The notes under the pieces are model-generated. The model was not told the DNA's origin, did no database searches, and was given only the letters and a program-made list of their open reading frames with translations. A program made the translations under genes and the position numbers. DNA of 64,000 nt from the NCBI GenBank assembly GCA_020723935.1, contig DYHY01000002.1, positions 28,851 to 92,850 on the forward strand, in the 5' to 3' direction. This stretch comes from Candidatus Micrarchaeum sp. Its GTDB lineage: Archaea > SpSt-1190 > DYHY01. Of the stretch, positions 1,211-29,763 are shown piece by piece; the stretch's first letter is position 1, and each line of letters starts with the position of its first letter.

Positions 1211-2131
1211 CTACCTGAAGAGGGGCTCGCCTTCCGGCTCGTCCTCTTCGGGCGCCTGGGGCTGCTGTTGCCGCTGGGGCGCAGGCTGCCTGGGCGCCTG
1301 CCTGGGCATCGCGTAGGGTGAGGGCGCCATCGTCGTCATCTGGGGGCGGAAATCGCCGCCCGAAGGCATGGCCGCCCTCATCTGAGCCTGCTGTTGTTGT
1401 TGTTGCTGCTGGGGCGGCGCGGGGGGCCTCGGCTGCTCGGGCGCGTTCCCGCCCTTCATGTCCGCGACGATGTCGTTGAGCTGCCTCACGTTCTCGGCGA
1501 AGACCGGGATCATGTTCTGCATCACGCGCTGCATCGCCTTGATCTGGCTCCCGACGCCCTCAAGCTCCTTGTTGTACTCCTCGATTTTGACGATGGAATC
1601 CTCCTGTAGCTGCGCGTACTTGACCCGCAGGTCGTTGAGGTTGTCCCGCAGGTCCTGCATCTGCCTGAGGAGCTCGCTCTTGGATTCCTCAAACTTGTCG
1701 AACTTGTCCTGCATCGCGTGCCATTTCTCCTCCACGATGCGCTCGATTATCTCCTCGGGCGAGGGCCCCTGCTGCTGCTCGGGCAGTGGCGGCATGCCCA
1801 TCGGGGAAATACCCATCTGCTGCTGCTGTTGCTGCATCTGGCCCATGTCCTGACCCATCGGAGGGCCCATTTGCTGCTGCATCTGGCCCATGTCCGGTCC
1901 CCCGGGCGGGCCCATCTGCTGCTGGGGCGGGCCGCCTCCGCCGGAGACGCGCATCTTGATGTCGGCCTGTGTCATCGCGTCCTGGATCTGCGGCAGGGGG
2001 ACGCCCCCCGCCTGCATCTGCTGGGCGATCACCGCGTCGGGTATGCCCTGCTGGCGCATCCCCATGACCGCATCGACAAGGTTGCCCTTGCCGCCCTTCT
2101 TGCCTCCGAAAACATTGTCTAGCAATCCCAT
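1211..2131 (-). CDS. Gln/Pro-rich coiled-coil protein, ArlC/D/E-like neighbour of the type IV ATPase
   Basis: About 306 residues. A helical N-terminal part (MGLLDNVFGGKKGGKG, then a region ending near residue 60) is followed by a Gln/Met/Pro/Gly low-complexity stretch (about 65-125), a long coiled coil (about 130-220) and a second Pro/Gln-rich tail ending ePEGEPLFR. The ATG at 2129-2131 starts 1 nt after the stop of the upstream coiled-coil gene, so the two are co-transcribed and probably translationally coupled. Position, back to back with the FlaI-type ATPase, suggests a cytosolic accessory factor comparable to the archaellum FlaC/D/E proteins. The low-complexity arms are unusual for that group. 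Function is inference. Confidence 0.72.
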   Translation of the reverse strand: MGLLDNVFGGKKGGKGNLVDAVMGMRQQGIPDAVIAQQMQAGGVPLPQIQDAMTQADIKMRVSGGGGPPQQQMGPPGGPDMGQMQQQMGPPMGQDMGQMQQQQQQMGISPMGMPPLPEQQQGPSPEEIIERIVEEKWHAMQDKFDKFEESKSELLRQMQDLRDNLNDLRVKYAQLQEDSIVKIEEYNKELEGVGSQIKAMQRVMQNMIPVFAENVRQLNDIVADMKGGNAPEQPRPPAPPQQQQQQQQAQMRAAMPSGGDFRPQMTTMAPSPYAMPRQAPRQPAPQRQQQPQAPEEDEPEGEPLFR

Positions 2132-2132
2132 G

Positions 2133-2522
2133 TTACACTTCGCGCCCCGTCCTAGAGCCTTCCTCACGTATCATTTTCCTTACTTCGTCCTTCGTGACGA
2201 ACTTCATCGGGTCGATCATGTTAATATAGCCTTCCAGTTCCCCGACTTTGGCCATCGTCGCAGCCTTGCTTATCTCCTTCCTCATCTGGGCGAGCTCCGT
2301 CTTGAGGACTGTGATGTCCCTCTGGAGGGCCGTGACGGTCCTTGCAAGGGACCCGACTATCTCCTCTATCTCCTTCGACTTTTTCGTGAGGCTGTCAGAG
2401 GTGAAGACCGAGCGTTCCGAGATGGCGTTGAGCTGGTCCTCGATGGCGCGTATCTTCCGCCCGATGTCCCCCCTGTAGTGGGAGGAGGAGTCAAACTGCA
2501 GGGGCGCGTTTGGGTCAAACAT
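2133..2522 (-). CDS. FlaC/D/E (ArlCDE)-like coiled-coil accessory protein
   Basis: 129 residues, almost wholly coiled coil from about 15 to 90, ending in a compact segment, GELEGYINMIDPMKFVTKDE, that resembles the C-terminal part of archaellum accessory proteins FlaC/D/E. Those proteins are thought to link the ATPase/platform motor to chemotaxis or switching. It starts at an ATG (2520-2522) with a TATA-like box about 31 nt upstream and is divergent from the ATPase gene. It is the first gene of a two-gene leftward unit. The similarity is recognised by eye, so ArlCDE membership is probable but not certain. Confidence 0.72.
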   Translation of the reverse strand: MFDPNAPLQFDSSSHYRGDIGRKIRAIEDQLNAISERSVFTSDSLTKKSKEIEEIVGSLARTVTALQRDITVLKTELAQMRKEISKAATMAKVGELEGYINMIDPMKFVTKDEVRKMIREEGSRTGREV

Positions 2523-2623: not shown

Positions 2624-4924
2624 ATGGCCGGGGAACCGACTGAACTGCAGCAGCCCTTCGGGGGGCTGGACGCCCGAGTGATACAAGAGGACAACGAGAG
2701 CATCCTCGAGGTCAACTGCTTCAACGTGTCCTTCTTCGCCCCGCTGGAGGACAGCGACACCTGGATGGCGAAGGTGATCTTCAAGCTGATGCAGTACCGC
2801 GAGGTCACCCAGATACGCCTCGCCGAGCGGCGCATCTACGAGTACGACCGGGCCCAGACGCAGATGCTCAAGGAGATAGCCGAGGTCCTGAGGTTCGTTC
2901 GCACCAACAACACGCTCTACAACCCCTACGCGATGAGCAACTTCCCGCAGGACGTCCACATAGGGGAGCGGTTCAGCTTCCTGCAGTCAATAGTGATGGA
3001 CCTCCTCCCCCGCGATCCCATCGGCGCGTACGTTGAGCTGATCCGCCGCGCGAGGAGGGAGGAGATAGAAGCGGGCAAGGAGGGCTGGCCCGCCTACAAG
3101 GCCGGCCGCGAGCATTTCATCAAGAACGTCCTCTACGTCATCAAGGCGATCCTCGACAAGACCGGCCTGATACGCGCGGCCGCGCAGTACCTGGAGGGCT
3201 ACCAGACGGGCGACCGGAAGGTCTACCGCCTCATCTTCCGCCCGACGTACCGCCCCAACTTCATGTTCACGCGCCTGATGGCCGAGATTCCCGTGGGCGC
3301 CCAGCAGCTCGACTCCTATTCCGTGCGCGACGCGACGGTCACGATCTTCAGGATGCCGGGGGAGGTGAAGCCCATCTACCACCTCATGCCCCCTGAGTTC
3401 CGCCTGACGGACGAGGAGTTCCAGGTGCTGGACTACGCCCGCGAGATAATGGCGCAGCACAAGCCAACGACCTCCGAGCTCATCGACCCGGGGCGCGTGC
3501 GCCTGTCCCTGCACGACGTCGCATTCGACCTGATACGCGAGTATTCCGAGAAGGGTGGCTTCCAGATGCGCCCCGCCGACAACGAGAGGCTCGCCGAGAT
3601 AATGACGCGCGAGACGGCGGGCTTCGGGATAATCGAGCTCATCCTCGCCGACGAGAAGGTCCAGGACATCGCGATAAACGCCCCGACGTCGGCATCGCCC
3701 ATCCAGCTCGTCCACGCCGATTTCGAGGACTGCCAGACGAACGTCATCCCGACGCAGGACGAGGTGGCATCCTGGGCCGCGCGCCTGCGCCTCTTCTCCG
3801 GCCGCCCGCTCGACACCAGCAACCCCGTCCTGGACACCTCCATCGAGATACCCGGCGCGAGGGCGCGTGTCGCCGCCGTCGCCCCGACCCTTTCGCCCTA
3901 CGGCCTCGCGTTCTCGCTGCGCCGCCACAGGGAGCGGCCTTGGACCCTCCCGCTCTTCATCAAGAACCGCGCGCTCACGCCCCTCGCCGCCGGGCTCATC
4001 AGCTTCCTCGTCGACGGCGGGCGCACGATCCTGATCGCGGGCACGAGGGGCTCGGGGAAGACGTCCCTCCTCGCCGCGATGATGTGCGAGATAATGAGGA
4101 CGAACAGGATAATCACGGTCGAGGACACGCTCGAACTCCCCACAATGAGCTTCGCGGAGATGCACTACAACATCCAGAGCCTCAAGGTGCAGAGCGCGAT
4201 AGTGCAGGTTGGTAACGAGCTCTCGGCCGCGGATGGCATCAGGACGAGCCTGCGCCTCGGCGACTCCTGCCTCATAATCGGCGAAGTGAGGAGCAAGGAG
4301 GCCCTCGCACTCTATGAGGCGATGCGCGTCGGGGCCCTCGCGAACGTCGTCGCGGGCACCATCCACGGCGACTCCCCCTACGGCGTCTACGACCGCGTGG
4401 TGAACGACCTCGGCGTCCCGCCGACAAGCTTCAAAGCCACCGACATCATAATCGTCGCGAACCCCATCCGCTCGGCCGACGGCATGCACAGGGTGAGGCG
4501 CGTCGTCGACATCTCCGAGATAAGGAAGCACTGGGACAAGGACCCGGTGAAGGAGAAGGGCTTCGTGAGCCTCATGGAATACGATGCCAAGGACGACGAG
4601 CTCAAGCCCAACCAGATCCTCACGGACGGGGAGAGCGAGATAGTCTCAAAGATCGCGGCGCGCGTGAAGGAATGGGTGGGGAACTTCGACGCGGTGTGGG
4701 ACAACATAACGATGCGGGCGAAGATGAAGAAGGCCCTCGTCGACTATTCGATATCCACCGGGAACCCCAACATCATCGAAGCCCCTTTCGTGATCGCATC
4801 GAACGATGCCGCCCACCTCTTCGGTGAGCAGGTGAAGAGGCAACAGGGGACCCTCGTCTCCGAGTACATCTACCAGAAGTGGGACGCCTGGGTGAAGGAG
4901 CAAATAAAGGCGGGCCGGGTTTGA
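2624..4924 (+). CDS. Type II/IV secretion system ATPase, FlaI/TadA family
   Basis: A 766-residue hexameric-type secretion ATPase expected to power assembly of a type IV filament or secretion pseudopilus at the cytoplasmic face. The Walker A motif GTRGSGKTS occupies residues 473-481, followed by an Asp-box-like VEDTLELP. The Walker B region DSCLIIGEVR has its Glu at 554, and a His-box-like TIHGDSP follows. It is much longer than ArlI/FlaI (about 550 residues) because of an extended N-terminal half. The divergent coiled-coil genes and the downstream double-T2SSF platform gene form the motor set. No archaellum-specific ArlH (FlaH) gene is adjacent. The family is certain; the kind of filament is inferred from context. 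Confidence 0.95.
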   Translation: MAGEPTELQQPFGGLDARVIQEDNESILEVNCFNVSFFAPLEDSDTWMAKVIFKLMQYREVTQIRLAERRIYEYDRAQTQMLKEIAEVLRFVRTNNTLYNPYAMSNFPQDVHIGERFSFLQSIVMDLLPRDPIGAYVELIRRARREEIEAGKEGWPAYKAGREHFIKNVLYVIKAILDKTGLIRAAAQYLEGYQTGDRKVYRLIFRPTYRPNFMFTRLMAEIPVGAQQLDSYSVRDATVTIFRMPGEVKPIYHLMPPEFRLTDEEFQVLDYAREIMAQHKPTTSELIDPGRVRLSLHDVAFDLIREYSEKGGFQMRPADNERLAEIMTRETAGFGIIELILADEKVQDIAINAPTSASPIQLVHADFEDCQTNVIPTQDEVASWAARLRLFSGRPLDTSNPVLDTSIEIPGARARVAAVAPTLSPYGLAFSLRRHRERPWTLPLFIKNRALTPLAAGLISFLVDGGRTILIAGTRGSGKTSLLAAMMCEIMRTNRIITVEDTLELPTMSFAEMHYNIQSLKVQSAIVQVGNELSAADGIRTSLRLGDSCLIIGEVRSKEALALYEAMRVGALANVVAGTIHGDSPYGVYDRVVNDLGVPPTSFKATDIIIVANPIRSADGMHRVRRVVDISEIRKHWDKDPVKEKGFVSLMEYDAKDDELKPNQILTDGESEIVSKIAARVKEWVGNFDAVWDNITMRAKMKKALVDYSISTGNPNIIEAPFVIASNDAAHLFGEQVKRQQGTLVSEYIYQKWDAWVKEQIKAGRV

Positions 4925-6171: not shown

Positions 6172-8241
6172 ATGTATCCCAACTACTCCCCCCGGCCCGG
6201 AGGGGGTGCAAGCCTCGGCGCTTTCACGCCGTCGGACCCCTTCACGAGCCATTTCTACAAGTCCTACCGCGCCGAGGAGAAGGTCCTCCCTGCCTCGTTC
6301 TACGAGAAGTTCTGCATGTCGGTGCCCAAGTGGGCCGAGATCCCCCTACCCTTCCTGAGGAAGCAGTTCTCGAGCGTCCTGCGGGAGGCGCTCCTCGTCT
6401 GCAGCCCGGGCCAGGTCTTCACGGTGTCCTTCTACTGTTTCCTCCTCGCGATGATGGTGGCCGTCTTCGTCCTCACCTCCCTCCCCTACACACCCATACT
6501 CCTGGGCGTCGCGGTGGTCTTCCCGCTCATCGTCCTCGTCGGCTTCTACGTCTATCCGTTCCTCAAAATCAAGATGGACCGCATGGCGGTCGTGGGCGAG
6601 GCGCCTCTCGCCATCCTCTACCTCGTCATCTCCTTGCGTGTCTCCCCGAGCCTCGAGAAGGCGGTGTCCTACGCGAGCAAGAACGTCCCCGAGCCCATAG
6701 GCCGCGAGTTCAAGTTCCTGATGTGGGACGTCGAGCTCAAGACGAAGAACTCGATGCAGGAGGCGATGTTCGCGTACAGCGCGCGGGTGAAGAAGTGGGC
6801 GCCGGGCTACTCCGACGCGCTCTACCTCGTCACGAACTCCGTGAACGAGCCCACGAACAAGTCGCGCCTCGCGGTCCTCGAGAAGGCGATGAGCCAGGCC
6901 CTAGACAACACAAAGGGCATCATGGAGAACTTCGCAAGGGGCCTGGGCTTGCCCGTCGCCGTCACGAACGCCCTCGCAATACTCCTGCCGGTCCTCGGCC
7001 TCGTCATGGCGCCCCTCGCATCCGTCTTCATGCAGCAGGCCGGCGCCCTCCCGGCGATGCTGGCGATCGTCTACGACTTCTTCCTCCCAATAGTCCTGGG
7101 GCTCATCGTCCTCGTGATACTGGCGGGGCGCCCCGCCACCTTCTCGGACATCGACATCAGGGGCGACCCGGACCTCCCGGCCGAGGGGCACTACAGGGTG
7201 AAGGGCGTGGGCGACATACCCCTGAACCTCGTCTGCCTCGGGATCTTCCTCGCCCTCTCGTTCATCACAATATTGGTCGCGATAAACACGGGCGGCGTCG
7301 TGTTCTCCCCCAACCCCCTCAAGGCGGTCGGCGCGCCGATGGGCTACAACGCCCTCAACACGATCCCCTTGATAGCGGCCGTGGGTATCTCCTGCGGCAT
7401 CTACCTCTACGCGAACAACGTCCAGAAGCTCAAGGCGCGCGACAGAATCCAGGAGATAGAGCGCGAGTTCGCGGCGAGCCTCTTCCAGCTCGGGAACATC
7501 CTGGAGCAGGGCAAGCCCCTCGAGGAGGCCTTCGAGATCGCGGCGCGCGGGATGAAGGGCACGCACAGCGCCGAGTTCTTCACGAGGACCGTTCACAACA
7601 TCAGGACGATGGGGATGCCGATAAGGAAGGCAATCTTCGACCCCGAATACGGCGCGATGAGGACGTTCTCCTCGAGCCTCATGAAGAACGTCCTCGGCGT
7701 CATAATAGAGTCCGCCGACAGCGGGCCCATCGTCGCCGCGCAGACGACGCTCTCCATCTCGAGCTACGTGCAGAACATCCAGAAGGTACAGGAGAAGATA
7801 GCCGACAACCTCGCGGACAGCATAACGGCGATGAAGTTCCAGTCCGCCGTCCTCGTCCCGCTGATAAGCGCCGTGATCGTGGGCCTCACGCAAATGGTGA
7901 CAAACATCCTCCTCGCGATGAGCAGGAACGTGAGCGATCTCATGTCCAGCAGCACGAACGTCGGGCTCTATTCCGTGTTCTCGTCCTCCCTCTTCAACAT
8001 CGGGAACGTGATGCAGGGCTCCTACCTCCAGATGGTCGTGGGCTACTACACCCTCGTCCTCCTCACGACCCTCGGGTTCTTCACGGCGGGCCTCGCGTAC
8101 GGCGTGCACGACAGAATAGCGATACAGATGAACGTGGGGCAGAGCCTCGCCCTCGGCATCATTATTTATTCGGTGATAGTCTTCTTCATAGTGACGGTGT
8201 TCGGGGGCCTGGCGACGTCCCTCGTCAGCCAGACCGTCTAG
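6172..8241 (+). CDS. Type IV filament platform protein with two T2SSF domains (FlaJ/TadC type)
   Basis: A 689-residue integral membrane protein expected to seat the ATPase and feed subunits into a filament. It has two T2SSF-like helical cytosolic domains: the first around residues 140-260 (GEAPLAILYLVISLRVSPSL, with L-R-V-S-P-S-L-E-K-A as the usual F-domain core), the second around 430-560 (F-A-A-S-L-F-Q-L-G-N-I-L-E-Q-G). Each is followed or flanked by hydrophobic spans, about eight to ten in total. The length and double-domain layout match archaeal ArlJ/FlaJ relatives. It opens the long gene run to 21177. Family identification is firm; ArlJ orthology is not. Confidence 0.93.
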   Translation: MYPNYSPRPGGGASLGAFTPSDPFTSHFYKSYRAEEKVLPASFYEKFCMSVPKWAEIPLPFLRKQFSSVLREALLVCSPGQVFTVSFYCFLLAMMVAVFVLTSLPYTPILLGVAVVFPLIVLVGFYVYPFLKIKMDRMAVVGEAPLAILYLVISLRVSPSLEKAVSYASKNVPEPIGREFKFLMWDVELKTKNSMQEAMFAYSARVKKWAPGYSDALYLVTNSVNEPTNKSRLAVLEKAMSQALDNTKGIMENFARGLGLPVAVTNALAILLPVLGLVMAPLASVFMQQAGALPAMLAIVYDFFLPIVLGLIVLVILAGRPATFSDIDIRGDPDLPAEGHYRVKGVGDIPLNLVCLGIFLALSFITILVAINTGGVVFSPNPLKAVGAPMGYNALNTIPLIAAVGISCGIYLYANNVQKLKARDRIQEIEREFAASLFQLGNILEQGKPLEEAFEIAARGMKGTHSAEFFTRTVHNIRTMGMPIRKAIFDPEYGAMRTFSSSLMKNVLGVIIESADSGPIVAAQTTLSISSYVQNIQKVQEKIADNLADSITAMKFQSAVLVPLISAVIVGLTQMVTNILLAMSRNVSDLMSSSTNVGLYSVFSSSLFNIGNVMQGSYLQMVVGYYTLVLLTTLGFFTAGLAYGVHDRIAIQMNVGQSLALGIIIYSVIVFFIVTVFGGLATSLVSQTV

Positions 8242-8460: not shown

Positions 8461-8907
8461 ATGACCAGGAGATTTGTCAGGAGGAAGTGCATCGGGCGCA
8501 GGAAGGGCAGCTTCATGGACGACTGGGTGATGAAAATAGCCTGGGGCATACTGATCCTGGGAATCCTCTACATGGTGGTCCTCATCCTCACTGCCTGGCT
8601 CAACAAGCGCGCCCCGCAGGACATCAAGCACGCGGGGGACCTCGTGATAAACCCGATGACGGGCCTCGCGCTCGGGATCCCGCCGTGGGGCGGCGCAGGG
8701 AAGGGGGGGAAGGGCAAGCGCAAGGCCAAGGCCGCGGCGGGGGGCGCCCGCAGGAAGGGCGACGCGGAGCTCTCCGTCCCGTTCTGGATAATCTTCTCCT
8801 TCGTCGTGATGCTCGTCGTCCTGATAGCCCTGAGGTACCTCAGCACCTACCTCACGAAGGTGCCCGCCCTCATAGGGAGCAAGGCGGCGGGGGGGCGGCT
8901 GATATGA
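8461..8907 (+). CDS. Two-span pilin-operon membrane protein
   Basis: 148 residues with a basic N-terminus (RRKCIGRRKGSFMDDW) and a span at about 25-46, a Lys/Gly/Ala-rich loop (about 80-101) and a second span at about 107-127. The R-R-K-G before the first span resembles a class III prepilin cleavage site, but the second span makes it unlike a simple pilin. Its stop overlaps the next start in an ATGA. I do not recognise a family. Confidence 0.65.
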   Translation: MTRRFVRRKCIGRRKGSFMDDWVMKIAWGILILGILYMVVLILTAWLNKRAPQDIKHAGDLVINPMTGLALGIPPWGGAGKGGKGKRKAKAAAGGARRKGDAELSVPFWIIFSFVVMLVVLIALRYLSTYLTKVPALIGSKAAGGRLI

Positions 8908-9074
8908 GCCGCAGGGCCCAGGAGGGCGCGAGGCAGATGCTCGTCTTCGTCGTCGTCCTGATACTCGCGTTCATCATCCTGTGGATCTTCGCGTCCAGGA
9001 GGACGGACCCCGACAAGATGGCGGCCGTCAGGGACGCGCTGCTCCCGATAATAGACAAGCTCAAGGGAGGATGA
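8904..9074 (+). CDS. Small pilin-like single-span protein
   Basis: 56 residues: MSRRAQEGAR followed by a hydrophobic span (12-30) and a short amphipathic helix. Its ATG overlaps the previous stop (ATGA at 8904-8907) and its own stop overlaps the next start (9071-9074), which indicates translational coupling within the operon. It is too short to hold a globular head domain, so a minor pilin, a filament core subunit or an assembly peptide are all possible. Confidence 0.6.
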   Translation: MSRRAQEGARQMLVFVVVLILAFIILWIFASRRTDPDKMAAVRDALLPIIDKLKGG

Positions 9075-9241
9075 TGCTAACAATGGCGATGGAAACGGAT
9101 GTCGGATCGGGAAGGAAGGGTCAGGCGACGGAGATGCCGGGGCAGGTCGTGTTCTGGATACTGGCGCTGATAGGCCTCGTGATCCTCGTGATCATAGTGA
9201 TGCGTGGCGGGACGCTCTTCAGGAACCTGTTCGGCACGTAG
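9071..9241 (+). CDS. Small pilin-like protein with class III-type signal
   Basis: 56 residues if the ATG overlapping the previous stop is used; ATGs at 9074, 9083 and 9089 are alternatives, and a gggagg just upstream favours the first two. The motif GSGRKGQATEMPGQVVFW is close to the archaeal class III prepilin signal (K-G-Q then an acidic residue at about +5) ahead of a hydrophobic helix at about 26-44. It is the best match in the operon to a substrate of an archaeal prepilin peptidase. No such peptidase is in the window. Confidence 0.62.
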   Translation: MMLTMAMETDVGSGRKGQATEMPGQVVFWILALIGLVILVIIVMRGGTLFRNLFGT

Positions 9242-9274: not shown

Positions 9275-9850
9275 ATGGCAGAAGGCGACAGGAAGACAAT
9301 AATCGAGACGCTCTTCGCGATACTGGGCGCCCTCCTCCTAATCGGCGTCATCGTCCTCCTCTTCTTCACCTACGTCCTCCCGCAGCTCCAGACCTACGCG
9401 GGGCCCAAGCGCGAGGCTCCGGAGCTGGAGGCGGCGCTCCAGAGCCTCTGCTTCTACCACCAGGCCTCGACCGGCCAGTCCCAGGTCGTCATCGGCGGGG
9501 GGACGAACATCGCGACCTTCACCGACGACTACGAGCTCACGCCCCTCGCGATCGCGCAGAACATGTCAAGGTGCTTCTCCGACGTCCCGCGGGGATGCAA
9601 GGTGCAGGGCGCGGGCGGGACGTGCTCGGAGAGGTACGAATGGGAGGGCGCGGCGACGATAGACTACAGGAGCACCTGCCCATTCAACCACGAGGAGCCG
9701 GGGCTTTTCGGGCACATCGTCTGCAGCGGCGGCTGCCCTAACTTCACAAGGGGGACATCATACCGGCTCCAGGTCGCATCGACCCTCGCGAGCCCCACGG
9801 TCTCCCTCCCCGACTTCTGCCTCTTCTACGCCGAGGAGGTGAGGCCCTGA
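9275..9850 (+). CDS. Cys-rich pilin-like membrane protein
   Basis: 191 residues. After MAEGDRKTIIET comes a hydrophobic helix (about 12-34) and then an extracellular-type domain with several cysteines (for example SRCFSDVPRGCKVQG and VCSGGCPNF), suggesting disulphide stabilisation. The stop is directly followed by the next ATG at 9851. No known family is recognised. It fits the operon pattern of an N-terminal helix plus a divergent head domain. Confidence 0.68.
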   Translation: MAEGDRKTIIETLFAILGALLLIGVIVLLFFTYVLPQLQTYAGPKREAPELEAALQSLCFYHQASTGQSQVVIGGGTNIATFTDDYELTPLAIAQNMSRCFSDVPRGCKVQGAGGTCSERYEWEGAATIDYRSTCPFNHEEPGLFGHIVCSGGCPNFTRGTSYRLQVASTLASPTVSLPDFCLFYAEEVRP

Positions 9851-10549
9851 ATGGCGGGAAGGACGGGCCGGAGGCGCGCTAGGCGCGCGGCGGACACCCT
9901 GGCGGTCCTCGTCTTCCTGATAGTCGCGCTCCTGGCAATCCTCGTCATATTCATGTGGGTCCTCCCCTACCTGCAGGACCAGTGGAAGACGGCGGAGTCC
10001 TCGATCACGTCCTGCGGCTGCATAGGGAACAGGACCAACATAATCGTGCGCGGCGTCGCGGACACCGTCTTCAAGAAGCAGCCCAACCCCTTCTCCTCGG
10101 CGGAGGTGGAGCTGTGCAACTGCAGGAACGAGAAGATGGAGCTGGGGCGCCGCCTGACTGTGGACGCGGTCGTGAACTTCCCCTGCTCCATATCCAAGGG
10201 CAAGAACGGCCACCAGGAGATAAACGGCCTCGCCATACCCAAATCGCTGTGGGGGATAACCCTCGACCGGGCGCAGGGCGTGAGCTTCGAGTTCAACGAT
10301 ATGGAGGTCTACGTGGACTGGCCCTACAACACCTATTTCATGCTCAAGGACAGGCCCGCCTTCGACGTGATAGTGCAGAGGATACCTGACTTCCGGGTTC
10401 CGCACTTCGACTTCGACTTCGGGAGCACGGACAGGGGCCTCGCGTATTTCAAGCTCAAGATCGACGGCCAAGACGAGACGAACGACACGACAATCCTCAC
10501 ATCCGTATCCGAGGACAACTCGGTGTGCTTCGGGGAGGCGCCGCCATGA
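9851..10549 (+). CDS. Pilin-like membrane protein with Cys-containing head domain
   Basis: 232 residues: a very basic N-terminus (GRRRARRAADTLAVL), a span at about 17-37, then a beta-rich head with paired cysteines (SCGCIGNRTN, ELCNCRNE) and an acidic, aromatic stretch (PHFDFDFG). R-R-A before the span resembles a prepilin cleavage site. It begins immediately after the previous stop and its own stop overlaps the next start. No family is recognised. Confidence 0.68.
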   Translation: MAGRTGRRRARRAADTLAVLVFLIVALLAILVIFMWVLPYLQDQWKTAESSITSCGCIGNRTNIIVRGVADTVFKKQPNPFSSAEVELCNCRNEKMELGRRLTVDAVVNFPCSISKGKNGHQEINGLAIPKSLWGITLDRAQGVSFEFNDMEVYVDWPYNTYFMLKDRPAFDVIVQRIPDFRVPHFDFDFGSTDRGLAYFKLKIDGQDETNDTTILTSVSEDNSVCFGEAPP

Positions 10550-21231: not shown

Positions 21232-22224
21232 TCATTCCTGAATCAGGAAATCTCCGGGCCAGCCGTATTTCGCCTGCCGTCTGTTCGTCGCGGGCGCAAC
21301 ATCCTGTGCGGGCCCTGGGGAATATGTGACGGGCTTCGGCGCGGCCGGGTCCTGGACGGCCGCGACCTCAACACCTTCTCCCAGCGGGGCCATGCCCAAG
21401 TCGACATCCACGTATCCGAGGGCGATGGCGTTGGGCGCCTGCCAGTAGGATGCTCTGCACTCGGGCAAAGGGGGTGTTGTCGTCGGAGTGAGGCTGAAGC
21501 CGGCAGTGCTGCCGCCCAAGGCGTCGTTGGCATGCGCGTCAACGGCTTTCCACACGAAGTCTTCAATCCCTCCGGACGCGAGCGAGCCCATTCCCGTTAT
21601 TGTCCGCCCGTTTGTCAATATCACGTAAGTTCTGGAAAAGGCCTGATTCTGACTCCTTTCCCGCGCGACTGCGGCGGACAGGAATTGAGCAACATCGTGT
21701 ATACTCCCGTCGCGCGCGACATATGAGCCGTTGAGCCCGTAATAGTCGCTAAACGTTATTTCGTCTCCGGCTTTCGGCGGCACCACGAAATTGATATATA
21801 TGTTGTCGTAATAGCCAGGACAGTCAGAGACCGGCGTGGATCTCACGGCGTCTATGAACGCTCCGGTGCTAGACACCCACGTCGTTATCGTTGGTTGGCC
21901 CGTGCCGAGTCCCTGATCGGTAAAGGGAACTTCTGCCCCCAGTATGTCCGGCCGGAGCCATATCGCGCCGTCCTGGAACGGGTTGCTCTGCGAGTCGGGC
22001 TTCGCGGTCGGTGGGACGGTTGCGGTCGGAGTGGGAGTCGGAACGTAGAGCGTCGCGGTCGGCAGGACCTGGGTCTGCTCGGCCGTCTCCGTCGGGGTCG
22101 GCGCTATCAGGGTCTGGATGACCTGCGGATCCTGGGGCGGGTCGCATCCGCTGAGCGCAAGGGACACCACGAGGGTGGCCGCGGCGGTCATATAAACCAG
22201 CTTTCCTCTCATTCGTGCTGCCAT
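21232..22224 (-). CDS. Putative secreted lipoprotein of bacterial character
   Basis: 330 residues. MAARMRGKLVYM, a hydrophobic signal and LALSGCDPP with a lipobox (L-S-G-C) predict a lipid-anchored surface protein. A Thr/Pro linker (YVPTPTPTATVPPTAKP) precedes a globular domain of unknown function. Such TPTPT linkers are common in secreted proteins of Chloroflexota. The gene is transcribed against both flanking pilus genes, is poorer in GC, and has an aggagaag stretch about 13 nt before the ATG rather than a near TATA box. I infer recent transfer from bacteria, with moderate certainty. Confidence 0.75.
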   Translation of the reverse strand: MAARMRGKLVYMTAAATLVVSLALSGCDPPQDPQVIQTLIAPTPTETAEQTQVLPTATLYVPTPTPTATVPPTAKPDSQSNPFQDGAIWLRPDILGAEVPFTDQGLGTGQPTITTWVSSTGAFIDAVRSTPVSDCPGYYDNIYINFVVPPKAGDEITFSDYYGLNGSYVARDGSIHDVAQFLSAAVARERSQNQAFSRTYVILTNGRTITGMGSLASGGIEDFVWKAVDAHANDALGGSTAGFSLTPTTTPPLPECRASYWQAPNAIALGYVDVDLGMAPLGEGVEVAAVQDPAAPKPVTYSPGPAQDVAPATNRRQAKYGWPGDFLIQE

Positions 22225-22630: not shown

Positions 22631-25600
22631 TTGGATTCCGACCGCAAGCCCGGGGATGCCCGGCTGGAGCAGGCCGCGCGCACGAGGCATGCCGCAGCCC
22701 GGGCCGGAAGCGCGGGCCGCAGGGGCGTAGGCCCGGCGGTCATAATCATCGGCGGAATCATCGTCGTCGCGATCGCCATCGCCCTGTTCTTCCTCTGGCT
22801 CCAGTCGCTCGCGACGATTGACTTGCAGGCGGACATCGAGGCTTCCGAGAACAAGTACGTGACCGCGATACATGTCATGGAGGAGGCGCGCATCTACATA
22901 AAGACCGCGACGGAATACGCGCTGCAGCTAGCAGTCCTGGACGTCTCTAGGCACGGCGGATACATCGAAAGTCCCAAGACAGGATCCAACGGGCTCCCGT
23001 ACCTGGGCTGGATAAACCCCGACTGGACGGCCTTCGCGCCGTGGCTCGGGCGCGACGTCTACAGCGAGCACGGTTTCCCGCTCAGGTGCCCGGAGAGCGA
23101 CAGCGATTACGCGTTCGTCATCACCCCGCCGCAGGTGAGCGACCCCAACGCCCGGCCCCTTGTCGACAAAATACTGCGCGAGATAAACTACTCCGTCCCG
23201 CCGATGCTTGAGCAGTACGTGCAGATCCTCGAGAGCAACTCGTCGCAGTACAAGCTCAACATCACAGTCTGGGACCACAACGCCGGGAGCTGGTATTTCA
23301 ACAAATTCTGCCTGGACTTGGGCGGCCCGGCCCTCCCGAACGACCCGGCCCTCTGGAGCAACATTGAGAGTTCGGGGGTCGCGTGGGTGAAGGCGGGCTT
23401 CGCCTGGGGGGACATCCAGTCCGCGCAGGGCGGGGAATACGACTGGACCCGTGTTGACGCGCTCTACACGGAAGCCGAGAAAAGGAACATAGAGGTGATC
23501 CCGATATTCGGCTGGCCGCCGCAATGGGCGAGGACCGAGGCCGGCGTGAACGACGTCTGCATCGGCGGCGGGGCGGGCGGCTGCAGCAACAGGCCCGACT
23601 ACGACAAGTACGACGACTACGCGGCGTTCATCTCGTCCTTCATGAGCCACGTGAAGGGGCGGGGCTGGCAGATCAACTACGTGATACCTTGGGTCCCGGG
23701 GATAAACAAGGCCGACAAGTGGTCCGCCGTCGGGATCGACACGGCGGAGTTCGCGCGCTTCTTCAAGATAGTCTCGCTCAAGATCAGGGCGACCGAGCCG
23801 TCCGTGAAAGTCATACTCCCGGCGCTCACCGAATACGCGGAAGTGTGCGGCTACGACGGGTACCCCCTCGACCCCAAGCCATGGAGCCTCTTCCAGACCG
23901 GAGGGGGGTGCGGCGCGTACGCGTGCCCGGCCGGGAAGAGCTGCGGCGGGGTGAAGTACATAGCCGGCTGCGCGAGCCCTTACGACACCGAGAGCCAGGC
24001 GGAATGCTTCGCGATAAACGCGGTCGACTGCACGCGCTCCGAGGCGATCCACACCGCCGGCCCCGACGGCAACCTGACATGCCAGCACTACGACTACTGG
24101 CACCCCTACATGTACGACCTGTCCGTGCGCCCGCCCGACACCAGGCGCGTCGTCTACACCGCGATGACGCAGTCGGCGTTCCTCAACGACCTCTACATCA
24201 ACGGAATAAATGACTATTTCGACGCGATGGAGGTCTGGGGGAGGGGCGCGAGCACCGACGAGCAGCTCCAGCGCGCGGACCTCTACAAAGGGAAGCTCGA
24301 GAGATACAAGGACACTGAGAAGAAGATATGGTTCGAGCCCATAGTGAGCGACGTGTCCCTTGAGCCGGCGCCCACCGCCCAGTTCATCGCCGAAATCTAT
24401 TCCAGGGTCCAGCAGTCGCCCCAGTACGACTATCTGGGGCCTGTCTGCCTCGGCGGATGGGGCCCGGGCACGATATCGGGCCTCGCCGCGCTCAAGAAGC
24501 CAATCTACTTCGCCCCGTGGGGCGAGACCAACCTCACGACGGTGCACGAGACGCGCGTCTACACGACCCCGCCGTCGGTCGTCTCAAGCAAGCAGTTCAC
24601 GGGCTTCGGGATGACGAAATCCGTCGACAACACGACCGCGGCCCTGGGCTTCTCGATACAGGAGATACTCAACGAGGCGAGGATGATAGCCAAGAACCCG
24701 TCGCGCGCGGTGATGTCCGGCGGCGTATCGTGCTCCTCCAAGAACGGCTTCTGCCCGGCGGCGTGGTGGAAGCGCGGCGACGCGAAATCCTGTCAGATAG
24801 GGAACTACGTCTGCCCGACGGACGCGGGGGACGGCGAGATAACCTGCAGCGCGAACGAGGTCGTCCCCTACAAAATGACATGCACCGCGGTCGCGGCCCT
24901 CTACGAATACACCTGCGTCGTCGATTCCGACGACTATCCGGGGCCGGGGGTCCCCTACGTCAACGCCAACTCCTGCAATGAGGGCGTGACATGGGTGACC
25001 GGGCAGGACGCCGCCGGCGGGGCGACCCTCGGGAGCAAGGGCGTGTGCGTCGCGCTCAAGGACGCGAAAGACAACGAGATCAAGTGCAGCCAGATAAACA
25101 AGGACAGCCACCGCCTCGGGATAAAGAACCCGTTCATATTCTGCAGGAACGTCGACGACCAGTGCTGCAGCTGGTCCGACACCCCCTACGAGTACGAGAA
25201 GGACCTGAGCATCGCCAAGCAGAGCACCGGATGCTATTGCCAGGCGCTTAACCCCAGGAGCGGCAGCCCCGGGGACCCTGGGGACAGCAGCGTCAACGAC
25301 GGGCCCGCGGGAAAATTCTTCTGCACTGGAGGCATACCCAGCTACAAGTGCGACTCGTGGTTCGGGGCGGACGGATGGGTGGCGAACGACCTGGGCACGG
25401 TGGACTTCGGAACGGACTATCCGGACGCCTACATGTCCGGCTGCAGGAACGAGGGAAGGAACCACGGCGGCGTTCCTTGGGTCGAAATATGCACGAAAAA
25501 TCCAAAACCCTGCTACGACAGCGCATACGATGGGCAGTCCCCGCCGCCGGAGATATCTTTGACAGGCCCGGACTGGGGCGCGTTCCACTCTGAAAGCAAG

Positions 25601-28600
25601 CCTCCTGAATGCGCGGCCGCCGGTGCCGACTGCGAGCTGGGTCCGGAAGAACCGCAAGGTTGTGGCGGAGACTTCTTTTCAGACGGGGCCGGCCACTGCT
25701 GCAAGATGGTCGGCACTCCTCCACAGCCAGATTGCAGCAGGGACGAGCCCACGAAGCGCTTCTGGTGGTGCGAGGCCAAGGACACGGATCCGAGCGCCCA
25801 ACCGCCCGAAGAGAAGCACGTCCCGTGCGGCGACGAGGGGTCCGGCGTCCCGGGGCTTTGCACGCGCCAGAGGCCCGGAGACAAGAAGATCTACAATCCC
25901 CTGCCCTGCCCCGGGCCCAACGGATGCTTCGGAGCGCTCCGGGGCGCGCCCTACCAAATACCCAACTACAAGGAAGGCTGGAAGGGCGACGCGCCGGCGA
26001 GCGAGATAGACGGCGGCCGGGTGTGGGGCAACGTCCCCGAGGAAGGGGAGAGCGTCGCATTCCACCTGCAGAGCGCAGCGGGGGGGAGCCTTAACAAGTG
26101 CGCGGATTCCGTAGAGGATCCCGCGTACCCGTATCCGGACAACGCCATGGAATGCTGGGACGCGAGGCCCGTCCCGACGCTCAACAAGATCCATGACCCG
26201 GAGCAGAAGCGAAACGATGTGCGCCTCTCGCGCCTCGACTGCGAGGTGACGGTGACCAACGCCCGCTGGGCCCTCCTCTCGCTCACGCAGGGCGAGCTCA
26301 CATCGGCCGACGCGTTCAAGAGCTTCCCCGACGAGTTCAAGTTCAACCTGGAGCTCCAGTACCGCGACAAGGACTGCCTAAGAGGCATAGCCGCGGAGGG
26401 CGACCCGCCGAGGCCCAAGTCAACGAAGTTCGAGGAGGGGCAGGCATTCGAGCACGACTGCACGTTCTACCGCCTGCCCAACACAGAATGGGCCAAGGAC
26501 CCGGTGCCGGGCGACCCGTGGCCCCCCGACACCGAGCCGATACAGCGCCTTGAGCACAAAAACCTGCCCGTGCCCCCGGGCTACAAGACGCTGGACATAC
26601 AGGGCGCGAGGAACTCAATACCGGGCTGCTGCGGCTACGAGAAGAACAACACCGAGTTCAAGGCGACGATAAACTTCGGCTACGACATAACCCCGCCCGG
26701 GCCGGTGAACGGCCTGAACAACCCGGGGGCGGGGAGCGCCGCGGACCTCACCCCCGTGCCGGCGATCGGGGGCTGCGGCTCGATAAAGCCCTCGTTCACG
26801 AGCTCCTCGCAGATACCGAACCTGGCGCTCTTCCAGCAGGTCTCGCAGGAGACAGGGGTCCCTGTCATCTACCTCCTCGCGAGGGGCTGGGACGAGTCGG
26901 GCCTCAACCACTTTTCCACGGACGGGGTCACGGTCAAGGGCTGCACGAGCGGCACGAGCGGATGCCACGGGTACATCGGCATAATGGCGGTCTCCGCATC
27001 GATCCCGGGCGTGACCGACATCCTCACCAACATCCGCGAGGGGGCGAGGAAGCTGAAGGCGGACATCGACAGGGTCGGGAGCTTCCAGGGCGCGGTCATG
27101 ATGTATTCGGGCGGCCCGACGGGGGGCTGCCAGCACATAACGACGCTCCTGGGCGGGACGGTCGGGGGCTTCTACGAATACGACCTCTCCAAATGCAAGA
27201 AGCCACCCGCAGACTGGGTCCCGCAGCTGTCCACGATAACGAGCAGGACATTCAGGGACCCCAAGGTCCTGATCTACAACCAAGGGAGCCCGTCCCTGGA
27301 CGATCGGCAGATATCGCTCTACGGCTATTCGATCGAATGGCAGAACGCCTGCGCGCTCTTCAGGGATTACGAGGCGGTGCAGGTGATAGCCCCTCTATTG
27401 GGCGGAGGCAGCTCTGCGACGACAACCACGACTGCCGGGCCCAGCCCTCCGGCGGGGGGCTTTGAGCTCGGCGGCCAGGTGGCGGGCGGCCTCTCCGACA
27501 ACGCCCTCGCCAAGATGAAGTGCTCAGGCATGACGTGGGTGAAACAGCAGATAAGGTGGGTCCCCGGCGCGAACCCCCAGGATCCGAAGGGCCTGATAGA
27601 CGACATCCACGGCAAGGGGCTGAAAGTCCTCCTCAGCATAACGGGCGACAACGGGAATCCGGCCGCCTTCCCCACGCCCGCGCAGTTCGACAGCTACGCC
27701 TCCTACGTGGCGGGGGTCGCGACGCTCGGGCCCGACGCGATAGAGGTCTGGAACGAGCCGAACCTTGACAGGGAGTGGCCCAACGGCCAAGTGAACGGTG
27801 GGAATTACGTCAATCTCCTCAAGAAAGCGTACCCGGCGATCAAAGCCGCGAACCCGCAGGTCCTGGTGATTTCGGCGGCGCTCGCGGAGACCGGGGCCGC
27901 CGGGAGCGCCGGATGCACGGCGGCCTACTGCAACTACGACACGTTCCTCGGGCAGATGGCTTCGGCCGGGGCGGACGCCTACCTCGACTGCGTCGGAGCC
28001 CACTACAACAGCGGCGTCGTCAGGCCTACGTCCTCGAGCGGCGACCCGCGCGCGCAGGATCCCAAGTACAGCTACTTCTCTTCCGTCAAGGACACTTACA
28101 AGGCGGCGTTCCCCGGCAAGCCCGTGTGCTTCACGGAAATAGGCTACTTCTCCAGCGACGGGTTCTCGGGGGCGCCGGCGGGGATCAACTTCGACCACAA
28201 CCTCGCAGACCACGCGGCATTCGACGGCGAGATACCGACGGCCTCCAAGCAGGATTCGTTGGTGAAGCTCGCCATAATATGGAACGTGGACTTCACGTTC
28301 TACGACCCGGCGGGCGACCCGCAGGCGGGCTGGGCGATAATACGCCCCGACGGGAGCTGCCCCGCGTGCGCGGCGATGGGCGCGGCGATGGGGGCGCCCG
28401 GCGCATCCAGCTGCGCCTCCGCCGGCGGCGGGATCAACGGGGACGAGGAATGCGCGAACGGCAGCCCCTATCCCGGCGAGGGGGGGATGGGCGGGGGAGG
28501 CGGCGGGGGCGGAGGGCCCTACCCGCCCGGAGGGATCGGGGCGGGAGACTACTGCAACCCAGTCCCCACTTCGACGAGCTTCGGCAACCTGTTCTGCGCG

Positions 28601-29089
28601 TGGAACGGGCACAACGGCCTGGACTTCATGGCCAACGAAGGCGACCCCCTCTACGCGATACAAGAGGGCACAGTCATCTTCGCGAGGGACAGCTTCAACG
28701 AGAACTGCGGGGACGCGAGCCTTCCGCCCGGATACGTGCGCTGCGGCCTCTGCGAGACGAGGTGCTACAGCTGCAGCAGGAACGCCCTCGTCATACAGCA
28801 CCCGGACGGCAGGTACAGCACCTACCTCCACCTCAAGCCGGGGAGCATCCTTGTGAGGAGCGGGCACGTGAACAGGGGCCAGCAAATAGCCCAGATAGGG
28901 GACGAGGGCTGCTCCAGCAGCCCCCACCTGCACCTCGAGATGGCGACCCTCGGCTCGCTAGGCGGGCAGGACAGGGGCTGTAACTCGGGGACCGACTGCT
29001 GTAAGGCTTCCTCGTACTACGGCCCGCTGTTCAGCGCCAAGACGATAGACCCCGGACCGTACACGCAGAGACTATGCACGGCGCCCTAG
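22631..29089 (+). CDS. Giant membrane-anchored multi-hydrolase: two GH-A-like domains, SLT lysozyme-like domain and M23 peptidase
   Basis: About 2152 residues from a proposed TTG start; the frame is open further upstream. Order: basic N-terminus with AGRRGVGPAVIII and a helix (34-56); a short domain; a first TIM-barrel glycosidase-like domain (about 239-634) whose acid/base region reads IPWVPGINK instead of WNEPN; a Cys-rich region (about 690-1375); an SLT domain (about 1394-1507) with E1422 in GWDESGLNHF; a Thr/Ser linker (about 1595); a second barrel (about 1610-1917) with intact EVWNEPN (E1709) and CFTEIGY (E1836); a Gly-rich linker (1951-1974); and an M23 peptidase (1977-2118) with H1994-x3-D1998 and H2099-L-H2101. 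The helix and context suggest it is displayed by the type IV system. Glycan plus peptide cleavage by one protein points to a cell-wall target. Substrate is unknown. Confidence 0.88.
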   Translation: MDSDRKPGDARLEQAARTRHAAARAGSAGRRGVGPAVIIIGGIIVVAIAIALFFLWLQSLATIDLQADIEASENKYVTAIHVMEEARIYIKTATEYALQLAVLDVSRHGGYIESPKTGSNGLPYLGWINPDWTAFAPWLGRDVYSEHGFPLRCPESDSDYAFVITPPQVSDPNARPLVDKILREINYSVPPMLEQYVQILESNSSQYKLNITVWDHNAGSWYFNKFCLDLGGPALPNDPALWSNIESSGVAWVKAGFAWGDIQSAQGGEYDWTRVDALYTEAEKRNIEVIPIFGWPPQWARTEAGVNDVCIGGGAGGCSNRPDYDKYDDYAAFISSFMSHVKGRGWQINYVIPWVPGINKADKWSAVGIDTAEFARFFKIVSLKIRATEPSVKVILPALTEYAEVCGYDGYPLDPKPWSLFQTGGGCGAYACPAGKSCGGVKYIAGCASPYDTESQAECFAINAVDCTRSEAIHTAGPDGNLTCQHYDYWHPYMYDLSVRPPDTRRVVYTAMTQSAFLNDLYINGINDYFDAMEVWGRGASTDEQLQRADLYKGKLERYKDTEKKIWFEPIVSDVSLEPAPTAQFIAEIYSRVQQSPQYDYLGPVCLGGWGPGTISGLAALKKPIYFAPWGETNLTTVHETRVYTTPPSVVSSKQFTGFGMTKSVDNTTAALGFSIQEILNEARMIAKNPSRAVMSGGVSCSSKNGFCPAAWWKRGDAKSCQIGNYVCPTDAGDGEITCSANEVVPYKMTCTAVAALYEYTCVVDSDDYPGPGVPYVNANSCNEGVTWVTGQDAAGGATLGSKGVCVALKDAKDNEIKCSQINKDSHRLGIKNPFIFCRNVDDQCCSWSDTPYEYEKDLSIAKQSTGCYCQALNPRSGSPGDPGDSSVNDGPAGKFFCTGGIPSYKCDSWFGADGWVANDLGTVDFGTDYPDAYMSGCRNEGRNHGGVPWVEICTKNPKPCYDSAYDGQSPPPEISLTGPDWGAFHSESKPPECAAAGADCELGPEEPQGCGGDFFSDGAGHCCKMVGTPPQPDCSRDEPTKRFWWCEAKDTDPSAQPPEEKHVPCGDEGSGVPGLCTRQRPGDKKIYNPLPCPGPNGCFGALRGAPYQIPNYKEGWKGDAPASEIDGGRVWGNVPEEGESVAFHLQSAAGGSLNKCADSVEDPAYPYPDNAMECWDARPVPTLNKIHDPEQKRNDVRLSRLDCEVTVTNARWALLSLTQGELTSADAFKSFPDEFKFNLELQYRDKDCLRGIAAEGDPPRPKSTKFEEGQAFEHDCTFYRLPNTEWAKDPVPGDPWPPDTEPIQRLEHKNLPVPPGYKTLDIQGARNSIPGCCGYEKNNTEFKATINFGYDITPPGPVNGLNNPGAGSAADLTPVPAIGGCGSIKPSFTSSSQIPNLALFQQVSQETGVPVIYLLARGWDESGLNHFSTDGVTVKGCTSGTSGCHGYIGIMAVSASIPGVTDILTNIREGARKLKADIDRVGSFQGAVMMYSGGPTGGCQHITTLLGGTVGGFYEYDLSKCKKPPADWVPQLSTITSRTFRDPKVLIYNQGSPSLDDRQISLYGYSIEWQNACALFRDYEAVQVIAPLLGGGSSATTTTTAGPSPPAGGFELGGQVAGGLSDNALAKMKCSGMTWVKQQIRWVPGANPQDPKGLIDDIHGKGLKVLLSITGDNGNPAAFPTPAQFDSYASYVAGVATLGPDAIEVWNEPNLDREWPNGQVNGGNYVNLLKKAYPAIKAANPQVLVISAALAETGAAGSAGCTAAYCNYDTFLGQMASAGADAYLDCVGAHYNSGVVRPTSSSGDPRAQDPKYSYFSSVKDTYKAAFPGKPVCFTEIGYFSSDGFSGAPAGINFDHNLADHAAFDGEIPTASKQDSLVKLAIIWNVDFTFYDPAGDPQAGWAIIRPDGSCPACAAMGAAMGAPGASSCASAGGGINGDEECANGSPYPGEGGMGGGGGGGGGPYPPGGIGAGDYCNPVPTSTSFGNLFCAWNGHNGLDFMANEGDPLYAIQEGTVIFARDSFNENCGDASLPPGYVRCGLCETRCYSCSRNALVIQHPDGRYSTYLHLKPGSILVRSGHVNRGQQIAQIGDEGCSSSPHLHLEMATLGSLGGQDRGCNSGTDCCKASSYYGPLFSAKTIDPGPYTQRLCTAP

Positions 29090-29118
29090 GCGGGCGGCAA
29101 TCTGGAGAAGAGGCTTAT

Positions 29119-29763
29119 ATGAACGAATGGCGCAACACGGGATACGGGGGAAGGTCGCTCCTGCTTGCCGCGGCGGCCCTGCTCCTGATCGCCGTCCTCG
29201 CAGCCCCGGCGGCGGCCCTCCCTGAGTACTGGCGAGCCGAGCCGCCGGCCAACGGGAGCATCACGCTCAAGCTCGTCTACGTCGTCGTAGCCGCGAACTC
29301 AACGCCCGCCGGGAGGATAAAGCAAGTGGATGTGAGGAACGTGACGATGCCCTTCTCGCTCAACCTCGGAACGTCGGAAGGCGGCGGCGGCCCGTTCGTC
29401 CTGCGGGAGGTCTGGGGGGACGGCTATTCCGCCGAGGCGCGGTTCGGGATAGACGAAAAAAATCCGGCGACGCAGGATGTCTGGCTGATCTTCAACCCGC
29501 CCGAGAGCACCGACGGCAAGACGCTCACGCTGGTCCTCGAGAACTCGGGGGCGGAACTGGACAGGATGGCGGTGCCCTACTGCGGGGACGGGACGTGCAT
29601 GAAGGGCGAGAGCGTCGTCTCGTGCGTGCCGGACTGCGGCAGGTTCCTGCGCCTCTCCCGCCAGCAGGCGTCCAAGGCGGTCCAGTTCCTCGCCGGCGGG
29701 ATCCTCCTCGCGCTCCTCGCCCTTTCAGTGTTCTTCGTCGCGAAGCGGATGGACGAGCCGTAG
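29119..29763 (+). CDS. Secreted, C-terminally anchored protein with a Cys motif
   Basis: 214 residues from the ATG at 29119; a longer frame begins at 29074 but overlaps the giant gene, and a gaagagg stretch lies before 29119. A signal peptide (hydrophobic to about residue 37, ending AAPAAALPEY) is followed by a beta-rich domain, the motif CGDGTCMKGESVVSCVPDCG (a short Cys module common in secreted archaeal and bacterial proteins) and a C-terminal span with a basic tail (FFVAKRMDEP). It follows the giant hydrolase by 29 nt and is probably co-transcribed. It may be its surface partner. Confidence 0.72.
   Translation: MNEWRNTGYGGRSLLLAAAALLLIAVLAAPAAALPEYWRAEPPANGSITLKLVYVVVAANSTPAGRIKQVDVRNVTMPFSLNLGTSEGGGGPFVLREVWGDGYSAEARFGIDEKNPATQDVWLIFNPPESTDGKTLTLVLENSGAELDRMAVPYCGDGTCMKGESVVSCVPDCGRFLRLSRQQASKAVQFLAGGILLALLALSVFFVAKRMDEP

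Follow-up and report, generated by a model that had tools for sequence, protein, structure and literature searches.

A pilus-like locus of an Altiarchaeota-related archaeon with predicted peptidoglycan hydrolase domains on pilin-like subunits

Why should a gene cluster resembling an archaeal type IV pilus encode domains predicted to cut peptidoglycan? The question is raised by a locus in a 64,000-nt stretch of DNA (the window) on contig C17 of an Altiarchaeota-related archaeal MAG (G000; 1.14 Mb in 47 contigs, 91% complete), which an earlier note had read as a candidate filament machine displaying cell-wall hydrolases. Gene models in the window (Table 1) follow a codon-usage-based call, with gene starts taken from a home-made caller. 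All genomes compared are MAG data, and the phylum labels of several of them were inferred from similarity alone.

The machine and its array of pilin-like proteins

The FlaI/TadA-type ATPase and the double-T2SSF platform named in the earlier note are both present. The ATPase has an intact Walker A motif (GTRGSGKT). It scores 122 bits with the archaellum FlaI equivalog NF058587 (cut-off 550) and 132 bits with the TadA-family (Tad pilus) equivalog TIGR03819 (cut-off 373) of NCBIfam, below the cut-off in both cases. Its homologues, N-terminal extension included, occur in Woesearchaeota, Aenigmatarchaeota, Nanoarchaeota and Micrarchaeota, the closest named relative being that of Candidatus Altiarchaeota isolate CSMAG_2918 (genome G001, 61% identity). 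Within one phylum, that of genome G055 (probably Aenigmatarchaeota, as judged by ATPase similarity only), 141 of 156 genomes possess it. The Pfam match of the platform lies below the cut-off, and its identity leans on constant pairing with the ATPase: across the ATPase loci surveyed, 97 platform matches adjoin 107 ATPase matches. This pair is spread DPANN-wide. The two genes are separated in the window by 1.25 kb of decayed, repeat-rich sequence.

Exactly 19 membrane-protein genes follow the platform on the same strand (8269-21177), as had been counted earlier, with gaps of -4 to 72 nt. Eighteen of their products contain one N-terminal TM segment and the remaining one (8461-8907) contains two. 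The single direction of transcription ascribed to the run holds for these 19 genes, but not for the conserved divergent pair at 1211-2522 or for the antisense ORF at 21232-22224.

The earlier note had also found prepilin-like basic residues ahead of nearly all N-terminal helices. A loose class III-like motif ([KRED][GA]) indeed precedes the TM segment in 16 of the 19 array proteins and in the giant protein encoded further downstream. As proof of prepilins this count was rejected, however: the same loose motif occurs in 63% of array proteins and in 40% of control single-TM proteins, and with so many controls matching, it carries little weight by itself. Elsewhere the genome encodes a type IV prepilin peptidase (A24-type; PF01478 at G000:C20:22449-22823, 3.4e-9). 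Among the approximately 19 subunits, mostly without any family, no Pfam pilin family was recognised.

Table 1. Features of the locus (positions in the window; L198 and L199 are the arrays of genomes G001 and G003)
Position	Strand	Feature	Evidence
1211..2131	-	Gln-rich/coiled-coil cytoplasmic protein, conserved divergent ATPase neighbour	homologue at most 4 genes upstream of ATPase in 78/103 loci
2133..2522	-	small coiled-coil protein, conserved divergent neighbour	found in 78/103 ATPase loci, divergent in 77
2624..4924	+	secretion/pilus ATPase (T2SSE family), N-terminal extension ~300 aa	PF00437 1.8e-16; DPANN homologues 37-61% identical over most of length
6172..8241	+	double-T2SSF (TadC/FlaJ-like) membrane platform	PF00482 0.029; near-constant ATPase follower; single copy in genome
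8269..8451	+	60-aa single-TM protein	gene call; gap 27 nt
8461..8907	+	148-aa protein, two TM segments, RRKG motif	gene call
8904..9074	+	56-aa single-TM protein	gene call
9083..9241	+	52-aa single-TM protein, motif RKG/QATE	gene call
9275..9850	+	Cys-rich pilin-like protein, 191 aa	gene call
9851..10549	+	pilin-like protein, 232 aa	orthologue L198:14492-15028, E 3e-7
10600..10743	+	47-aa single-TM protein	gene call
10787..11335	+	Cys-rich pilin-like protein, 182 aa	orthologue L198:13732-14292, E 1e-3
11403..11969	+	188-aa paralogue of 10787..11335	similarity seen directly
12004..13296	+	pilin-like protein, 430 aa	orthologue L198:13201-13722, E 2e-12
13293..13745	+	pilin-like protein, 150 aa, RRG/AVEVT	orthologue L198:12791-13186, E 3e-4
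13742..14374	+	pilin-like protein, 210 aa	orthologue L198:12129-12794, E 2e-10; L199 E 9e-6
14385..14945	+	pilin-like protein, most conserved array family (..QPIWI.. type)	orthologues in L198, L199, G004, G002, E 5e-11 to 1.5e-5
15015..15608	+	197-aa paralogue of 14385..14945	sequence comparison
15679..16278	+	pilin-like protein, typical class III motif RRG/QVTDTL	gene call, L198 comparison
16275..17930	+	large pilin-like protein, 551 aa	positional orthologue L198:8839-11100, E 5e-4
18003..19160	+	pilin-like subunit; SLT (lytic transglycosylase/lysozyme-like) domain inserted	PF01464 1.7e-7; insertion seen against L198, L199 orthologues
19163..20440	+	pilin-like subunit, at most degenerate SLT-like remnant	orthologue L198:7310-8284; SLT profile 6.3 bits
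20437..21177	+	pilin-like subunit, 246 aa	orthologues L198:6747-7313, L199:10208-10750
21232..22224	-	probable lipoprotein (lipobox LALSGC), opposite in direction to array and giant and lying between them; system membership unclear	translation
22631..29089	+	2152-aa giant, conserved pilin-like N-terminus and predicted hydrolase domains	Pfam, profile search, L198/L199 orthology
29119..29763	+	secreted protein, C-terminal TM anchor, membership uncertain	29 nt after giant; no Pfam or NCBIfam family

Two other Altiarchaeia genomes carry a pilin-like array collinear with that of the window: G001, of the same family (array L198, contig C12), and G003, of the same class (array L199, contig C51). The best matches in L198 fall in the order 9851, 10787/11403, 12004, 13293, 13742, 14385/15015, 15679, 16275, 18003, 19163, 20437 and N-terminus of the giant; taken singly, several of these matches are weak (E about 1e-3), but they keep a consistent order. 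Beyond the giant's orthologue in L198 lie the same stomatin-like gene and neighbour as in the window. In many DPANN lineages the ATPase is followed by arrays of small proteins with one TM segment; many Woesearchaeota have the array in a non-adjacent position. The earlier note had proposed profile searches, asking whether homologues of the pilin-like proteins are scattered and unlinked to ATPase and platform. The block was found to recur as a unit with ATPase and platform: same-class genomes keep its gene order, and several DPANN lineages have equivalent arrays.

Hydrolase domains inserted into conserved subunits

Two SLT-type modules had been reported inside the run. One of them, in 18003-19160, is intact: it scores 31.3 bits against a gathering cut-off of 21.3 and retains the motifs QLESG, GIMQI and AAYSGG, catalytic Glu included. 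The L198 orthologue of this subunit has 181 aa and that of L199 149 aa; in the alignment, N- and C-terminal parts are common to all three proteins and the SLT domain, at about residues 91-304, is extra sequence in the window. The alignment shows the predicted domain as cleanly inserted in a pilin-like subunit that is itself conserved. A phmmer search against the PDB returned no match for the protein, and an AlphaFold2 model built from three sequences was not used (mean pLDDT 36). The other module, in 19163-20440, is at best a remnant. This protein has no Pfam match, and its low score with the local SLT profile, together with a catalytic Glu absent by eye, rules it out as a second intact SLT enzyme.

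In the giant protein, glycosidase, lysozyme-like and M23 domains had been recognised. Its predicted order is pilin-like N-terminus, weak GH-A-like barrel, Cys-rich middle, SLT (residues ~1401-1504), GH39/53-like barrel and M23 (~1993-2106). The M23 domain stands (4.7e-16, 59.2 bits against a cut-off of 28.7), with both Zn-ligand motifs, HxxxD (HNGLD) and HxH (HLHLE), and so does the SLT domain, detected with a profile seeded from that of 18003-19160. The glycosidases, on the other hand, are weak matches only: the first barrel is GH30/GH39-like at E 0.016-0.08, very weak, with the NEP motif absent by eye, and the second is GH39/GH53/PslG-like with motifs NEPN and TEIG. Orthologues of the giant's N-terminus are L198:4748-6712, of 654 aa, and L199:10747-12039, of 430 aa, and Pfam detects a hydrolase in neither.

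Array and giant are separated by a 1.45-kb gap containing the antisense lipoprotein ORF. No homologue of this ORF was found in the loci compared, and the genes flanking it adjoin each other in L198. Its possible homology to lipoproteins beside M23/SLT genes in loci L289, L290 and L293 was rejected, since there is no similarity.

The hydrolase domains were either added to a conserved machine in the lineage of the window or lost in its relatives; addition appears, from the sequences compared, to be the simplest reading. Because orthologous subunits of the closest relatives (G001, and array L199 of G003) are devoid of hydrolases, the core machine must have another role too.

It is hardly credible that unrelated hydrolase genes merely happen to lie beside a pilus operon, or that the contig is mis-binned. 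MAG data and the antisense ORF flanking the giant might raise such a suspicion, but conserved synteny with an independent MAG, where the orthologues are collinear and their right-hand neighbours match, contradicts it. An archaeal rpoD-like gene on the window's own contig, the in-frame fusions to conserved subunits and the recurrence in many genomes speak against it as well. The same fusions bear on another explanation, namely that of a short secretion or uptake pseudopilus, T2SS- or competence-like, whose piston exports the hydrolases or takes up the DNA or debris they release and so feeds a scavenger. The ATPase/platform superfamily is common to T2SS and competence pili, the subunits are many with no obvious single major pilin, and organisms with such small genomes would need scavenging. 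Nevertheless, we consider this improbable, as the hydrolases are fused to conserved pilin-like N-termini and do not stand behind ordinary signal peptides.

Hydrolase-bearing subunits in other DPANN genomes

Distal pilin-like subunits with SLT, M23, M15, amidase or L,D-transpeptidase domains were found in probable Aenigmatarchaeota and in Woesearchaeota, so that at least five unrelated families of peptidoglycan-active enzymes occur on distal subunits of such arrays. In these neighbourhoods the hydrolases lie near the distal array end, on single-TM subunits mostly starting MKG/MRKG-like. According to Pfam, M23 subunits are present in L283, L284, L286, L287 and L288, a subunit with SLT and Amidase_2 in L240/L294 and one with SLT and a C39-like domain in L251; L284 further encodes a 1203-aa protein with YkuD and Amidase_3, and in L285 an SLT match just under the cut-off is accompanied by M15_4 on the neighbouring subunit. 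SLT and M23 are united within one protein in L250, while L235/L236, where no ATPase lies close to the array, have an SLT subunit two genes away from an M23 subunit. Genus g118 allows us to follow a single orthologous subunit, which has M23 in G163 and G166 and M15 in G165; its neighbouring subunit bears SLT only in G165. Catalytic motifs are preserved in 41 of 46 SLT domains and, by a strict pattern, in 20 of 33 M23 domains.

Genome G003 encodes, besides its array, several secreted proteins of ~1900-2150 aa in which M23 is combined with SLT or NlpC/P60. Some of them adjoin a class III-like protein similar in size and context to that after the ATPase of G003. We rejected them as orthologues of the window giant, because they start with signal-like peptides and only the enzyme domains match.

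How common are such subunits? In a set of the window genome plus 60 relatives, SLT was detected in 5 and M23 in 12; in the phylum of G055, in 46 and 56 of 156 genomes, respectively. Within these 156 genomes of one phylum, counting those with a listed ATPase, 14 of 127 SLT/M23 matches lie at most 11 kb from the ATPase against 3.6 expected (P about 2e-5, a rough value, since matches were taken as independent, genome size was set to 0.85 Mb and related genomes were included). For many SLT/M23 genes there is no linkage to the ATPase, and some encode lipoproteins or multi-TM proteins.

Loci L283-L294 were chosen because they contain hydrolase matches. Among 49 large array proteins from loci not picked in this way, two carry M23, one SLT, two Laminin-G and two binding-protein domains. 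Since lectin and binding-protein domains thus occur beside the three hydrolases, the latter represent one class of heads among several. The comparison shows that, as far as predicted domains go, the heads are exchangeable: M15, amidases, L,D-transpeptidase, lectins or binding domains are borne on such subunits in other DPANN. The pilus-like machine of DPANN is more general, with hydrolases as optional heads and not as its universal function.

This variety would also fit a different target. The locus might encode an attachment or surface-digestion pilus directed toward a partner cell, be it archaeal or bacterial, with lysozyme-fold, GH and M23 domains that act on exopolysaccharide, S-layer glycans or proteins and not on peptidoglycan. 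Laminin-G lectins and binding-protein-like domains on other arrays would fit well, as would the absence of hydrolases from the relatives' arrays and the resemblance of the giant's second barrel to GH39/GH53 and PslG-type polysaccharide hydrolases. We nevertheless regard this explanation as rather unlikely: homologous arrays bear Amidase_2, Amidase_3, the M15 D-Ala-D-Ala carboxypeptidase and YkuD, all of them with peptidoglycan chemistry, and SLT is repeatedly paired with a peptidase. Such varied peptidoglycan chemistries on homologous subunits are the strongest argument for peptidoglycan as the target.

Whose peptidoglycan would be cut? No Mur ligase (PF08245) was found in the window genome (91% complete), in G001 or G003, or in 14 of 17 other genomes tested; of the 20 in total, three have one. 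Since the window genome has no detected Mur ligase, the substrate probably comes from bacteria. In bacteria themselves, T4SS and T4P systems employ lytic transglycosylases to pass the producer's own wall, and a double-membrane envelope is known in some Altiarchaeota. One could accordingly imagine hydrolases opening a wall-like layer of the archaeon itself for passage of the pilus, in the manner of VirB1. Such self-remodelling is very improbable, given that Mur ligase was missing from the window genome and 16 of the 19 others tested and that the closest relatives operate the same machine without hydrolases.

Possible function and comparison with known systems

Taken together, we consider it probable that the locus encodes an archaeal type IV-pilus-like machine displaying exchangeable peptidoglycan hydrolases against bacterial walls. 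The suggestion of the earlier note that the machine may attack walls of other cells thus gains support from the distal recurrence of hydrolase subunits of at least five families, the presence of a prepilin peptidase and the missing Mur ligase, the bacterial target itself being deduced from sequence. ATPase and platform, a machine type spread DPANN-wide, would assemble about 19 pilin-like subunits, their genes kept in fixed order, into a filament or pseudopilus. In the lineage of the window, distal subunits, probably tip or minor ones, would have gained hydrolase domains: SLT in one, GH, SLT and M23 in the terminal one.

We infer the following course. The subunits would be inserted into the membrane and their class III signals removed by a PibD-type peptidase, for which a gene is present; assembly on the platform would be driven by the ATPase, as its family suggests. 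Fused to pilin-like subunits, the predicted enzymes would sit on the pilus or its tip complex, beyond the archaeal envelope. Upon contact, SLT would cut glycan strands and M23 the peptide crosslinks of the bacterial wall, which would thereby be opened for feeding, attachment or uptake. Entry, predation, feeding or attachment would each be compatible with the data. A more specific version can be put forward only tentatively: a contact-dependent type IV 'drilling' pilus of DPANN, whose tip subunits would serve as exchangeable mounts for peptidoglycan-cutting enzymes. Bacterial walls would be broken through with it in predation, parasitism or feeding, and the enzymes placed on orthologous subunits would differ between lineages.

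A peptidoglycan hydrolase tied to a type IV nanomachine is familiar from bacteria, in VirB1 of T4SS and in T4P-associated transglycosylases. These bacterial enzymes, however, are separate proteins opening the producer's own wall, whereas in the window the predicted enzyme is part of a pilin-like subunit and no peptidoglycan pathway was detected. With archaeal type IV pili and the T2SS-F superfamily (PMC4858521) the locus shares a VirB11/FlaI-TadA-type ATPase, a TadC/FlaJ-type platform, multi-subunit organisation, putative class III-like N-terminal helices and, in the genome, a PibD-type peptidase; it differs in its approximately 19 mostly family-less subunits and in their peptidoglycan hydrolase domains. 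The main text of that survey (Makarova et al. 2016) does not mention transglycosylase.

DPANN islands in which ATPase and TadC stand beside many signal-bearing dark-matter proteins (Makarova et al. 2019, Fig. 2A; PMC6393860) are very probably the same kind of locus, and hydrolase-bearing subunits, unlike in the window, are not described in the accessible part of that paper. Because it already noted islands of ATPase, TadC and diverse pilins, the pilus itself is not undescribed. The earlier note knew of no archaeal pilus with such content; this must be narrowed to the combination of pilus and hydrolase, for which a literature search in archaea and DPANN, at the level of titles, abstracts and accessible passages, found no describing paper.

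The enzymes have a literature of their own. Archaea without peptidoglycan carry M23 and other peptidoglycan hydrolases, prominent in Nanoarchaeota, and one of these was shown to kill bacteria (Strock et al. 2025; PMC12352652). Those enzymes are modular, with peptidoglycan-binding domains and with Sec/Tat signals in 32%, whereas the window enzymes sit on pilin-like subunits; pilins and pili are absent from the main text of that study. GH23/SLT enzymes in Woesearchaeota (DPANN) were taken as a sign of predation on bacteria by Vigneron et al. 2022 (PMC9723730), whose main text does not contain the words pili or pilus and draws no link to them.

About two thirds of the archaeal hydrolases surveyed in PMC12352652 have no recognised signal peptide. 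Fusion of pilin type could explain some of these, and a pilus-like machine with wall-cutting subunits would offer one concrete route to bacteria. It would also predict bacterial prey or hosts for DPANN lineages often held to live on archaea. Such DPANN could be found in metagenomes by a simple sequence signature, that is, a pilin-like N-terminus joined to a peptidoglycan hydrolase domain near this ATPase. Machine (PMC4858521, PMC6393860) and enzymes (PMC12352652, PMC9723730) are known separately; as far as the accessible parts of this literature go, what is new is the joining of hydrolases to pilin-like subunits.

Surroundings of the array in the window

The sequence between the ATPase and platform genes is decayed, with in-frame stops and short homopolymer or triplet runs, and its frame fragments resemble, by eye, a PlsC-like acyltransferase. 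An antisense lipoprotein-like ORF lies where the genes of a relative are adjacent; its codon use is atypical and no homologue was found among the loci fetched from the compared genomes. To the right of the array, a stomatin-like gene and its neighbour are kept in G001, a genome of the same family.

Features described in this part, with their coordinates
Feature	Location	Strand	Remarks
Decayed sequence	window 4925-6171
Lipoprotein-like ORF	window 21232-22224	-	LALSGC lipobox; Thr/Pro-rich
Stomatin-like gene and neighbour	window 29820-31523	-
Array protein with a possible further head	L037:3866-8326	-	others in alignment A3
Split pilus ATPase	G132:C6:93864-97931 (= L291:13846-17985)		other examples in G178, G068, G065

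Array ends and further heads

At the end of the array in three loci (L289, L290, L293) come a lipoprotein gene and a gene for a TM-anchored M23 or SLT protein, both in opposite orientation, and next to them a second platform gene follows. Some pilin-like array proteins carry Laminin-G lectin or periplasmic-binding-protein domains, possibly further heads on the same array type.

Split ATPase matches

Some genomes in the phylum of G055 (probably Aenigmatarchaeota, judged by ATPase similarity) have pilus ATPase matches that break in two close to Walker A, at model position ~485 or ~505-540, with both parts lying in one open frame, which is roughly 1250-1780 aa long. Judged from sequence, this pattern is what would be expected of inteins.

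Other large SLT and M23 proteins

Three loci (L172, L174, L175) of G003, an Altiarchaeia genome of 3.8 Mb with 6% contamination, encode secreted proteins of ~1900-2150 aa bearing M23 plus SLT or NlpC/P60, some of which adjoin two proteins, one near 900 aa and the other near 600 aa, that resemble the pair after the G003 pilus ATPase. Seven other loci (L234, L243, L244, L245, L246, L247, L248) encode multi-TM proteins of exceptional length, 1300-2030 aa, that end in an SLT domain; the one in L243 has M23 as well. These look like components of T4SS/conjugation type rather than pilins.
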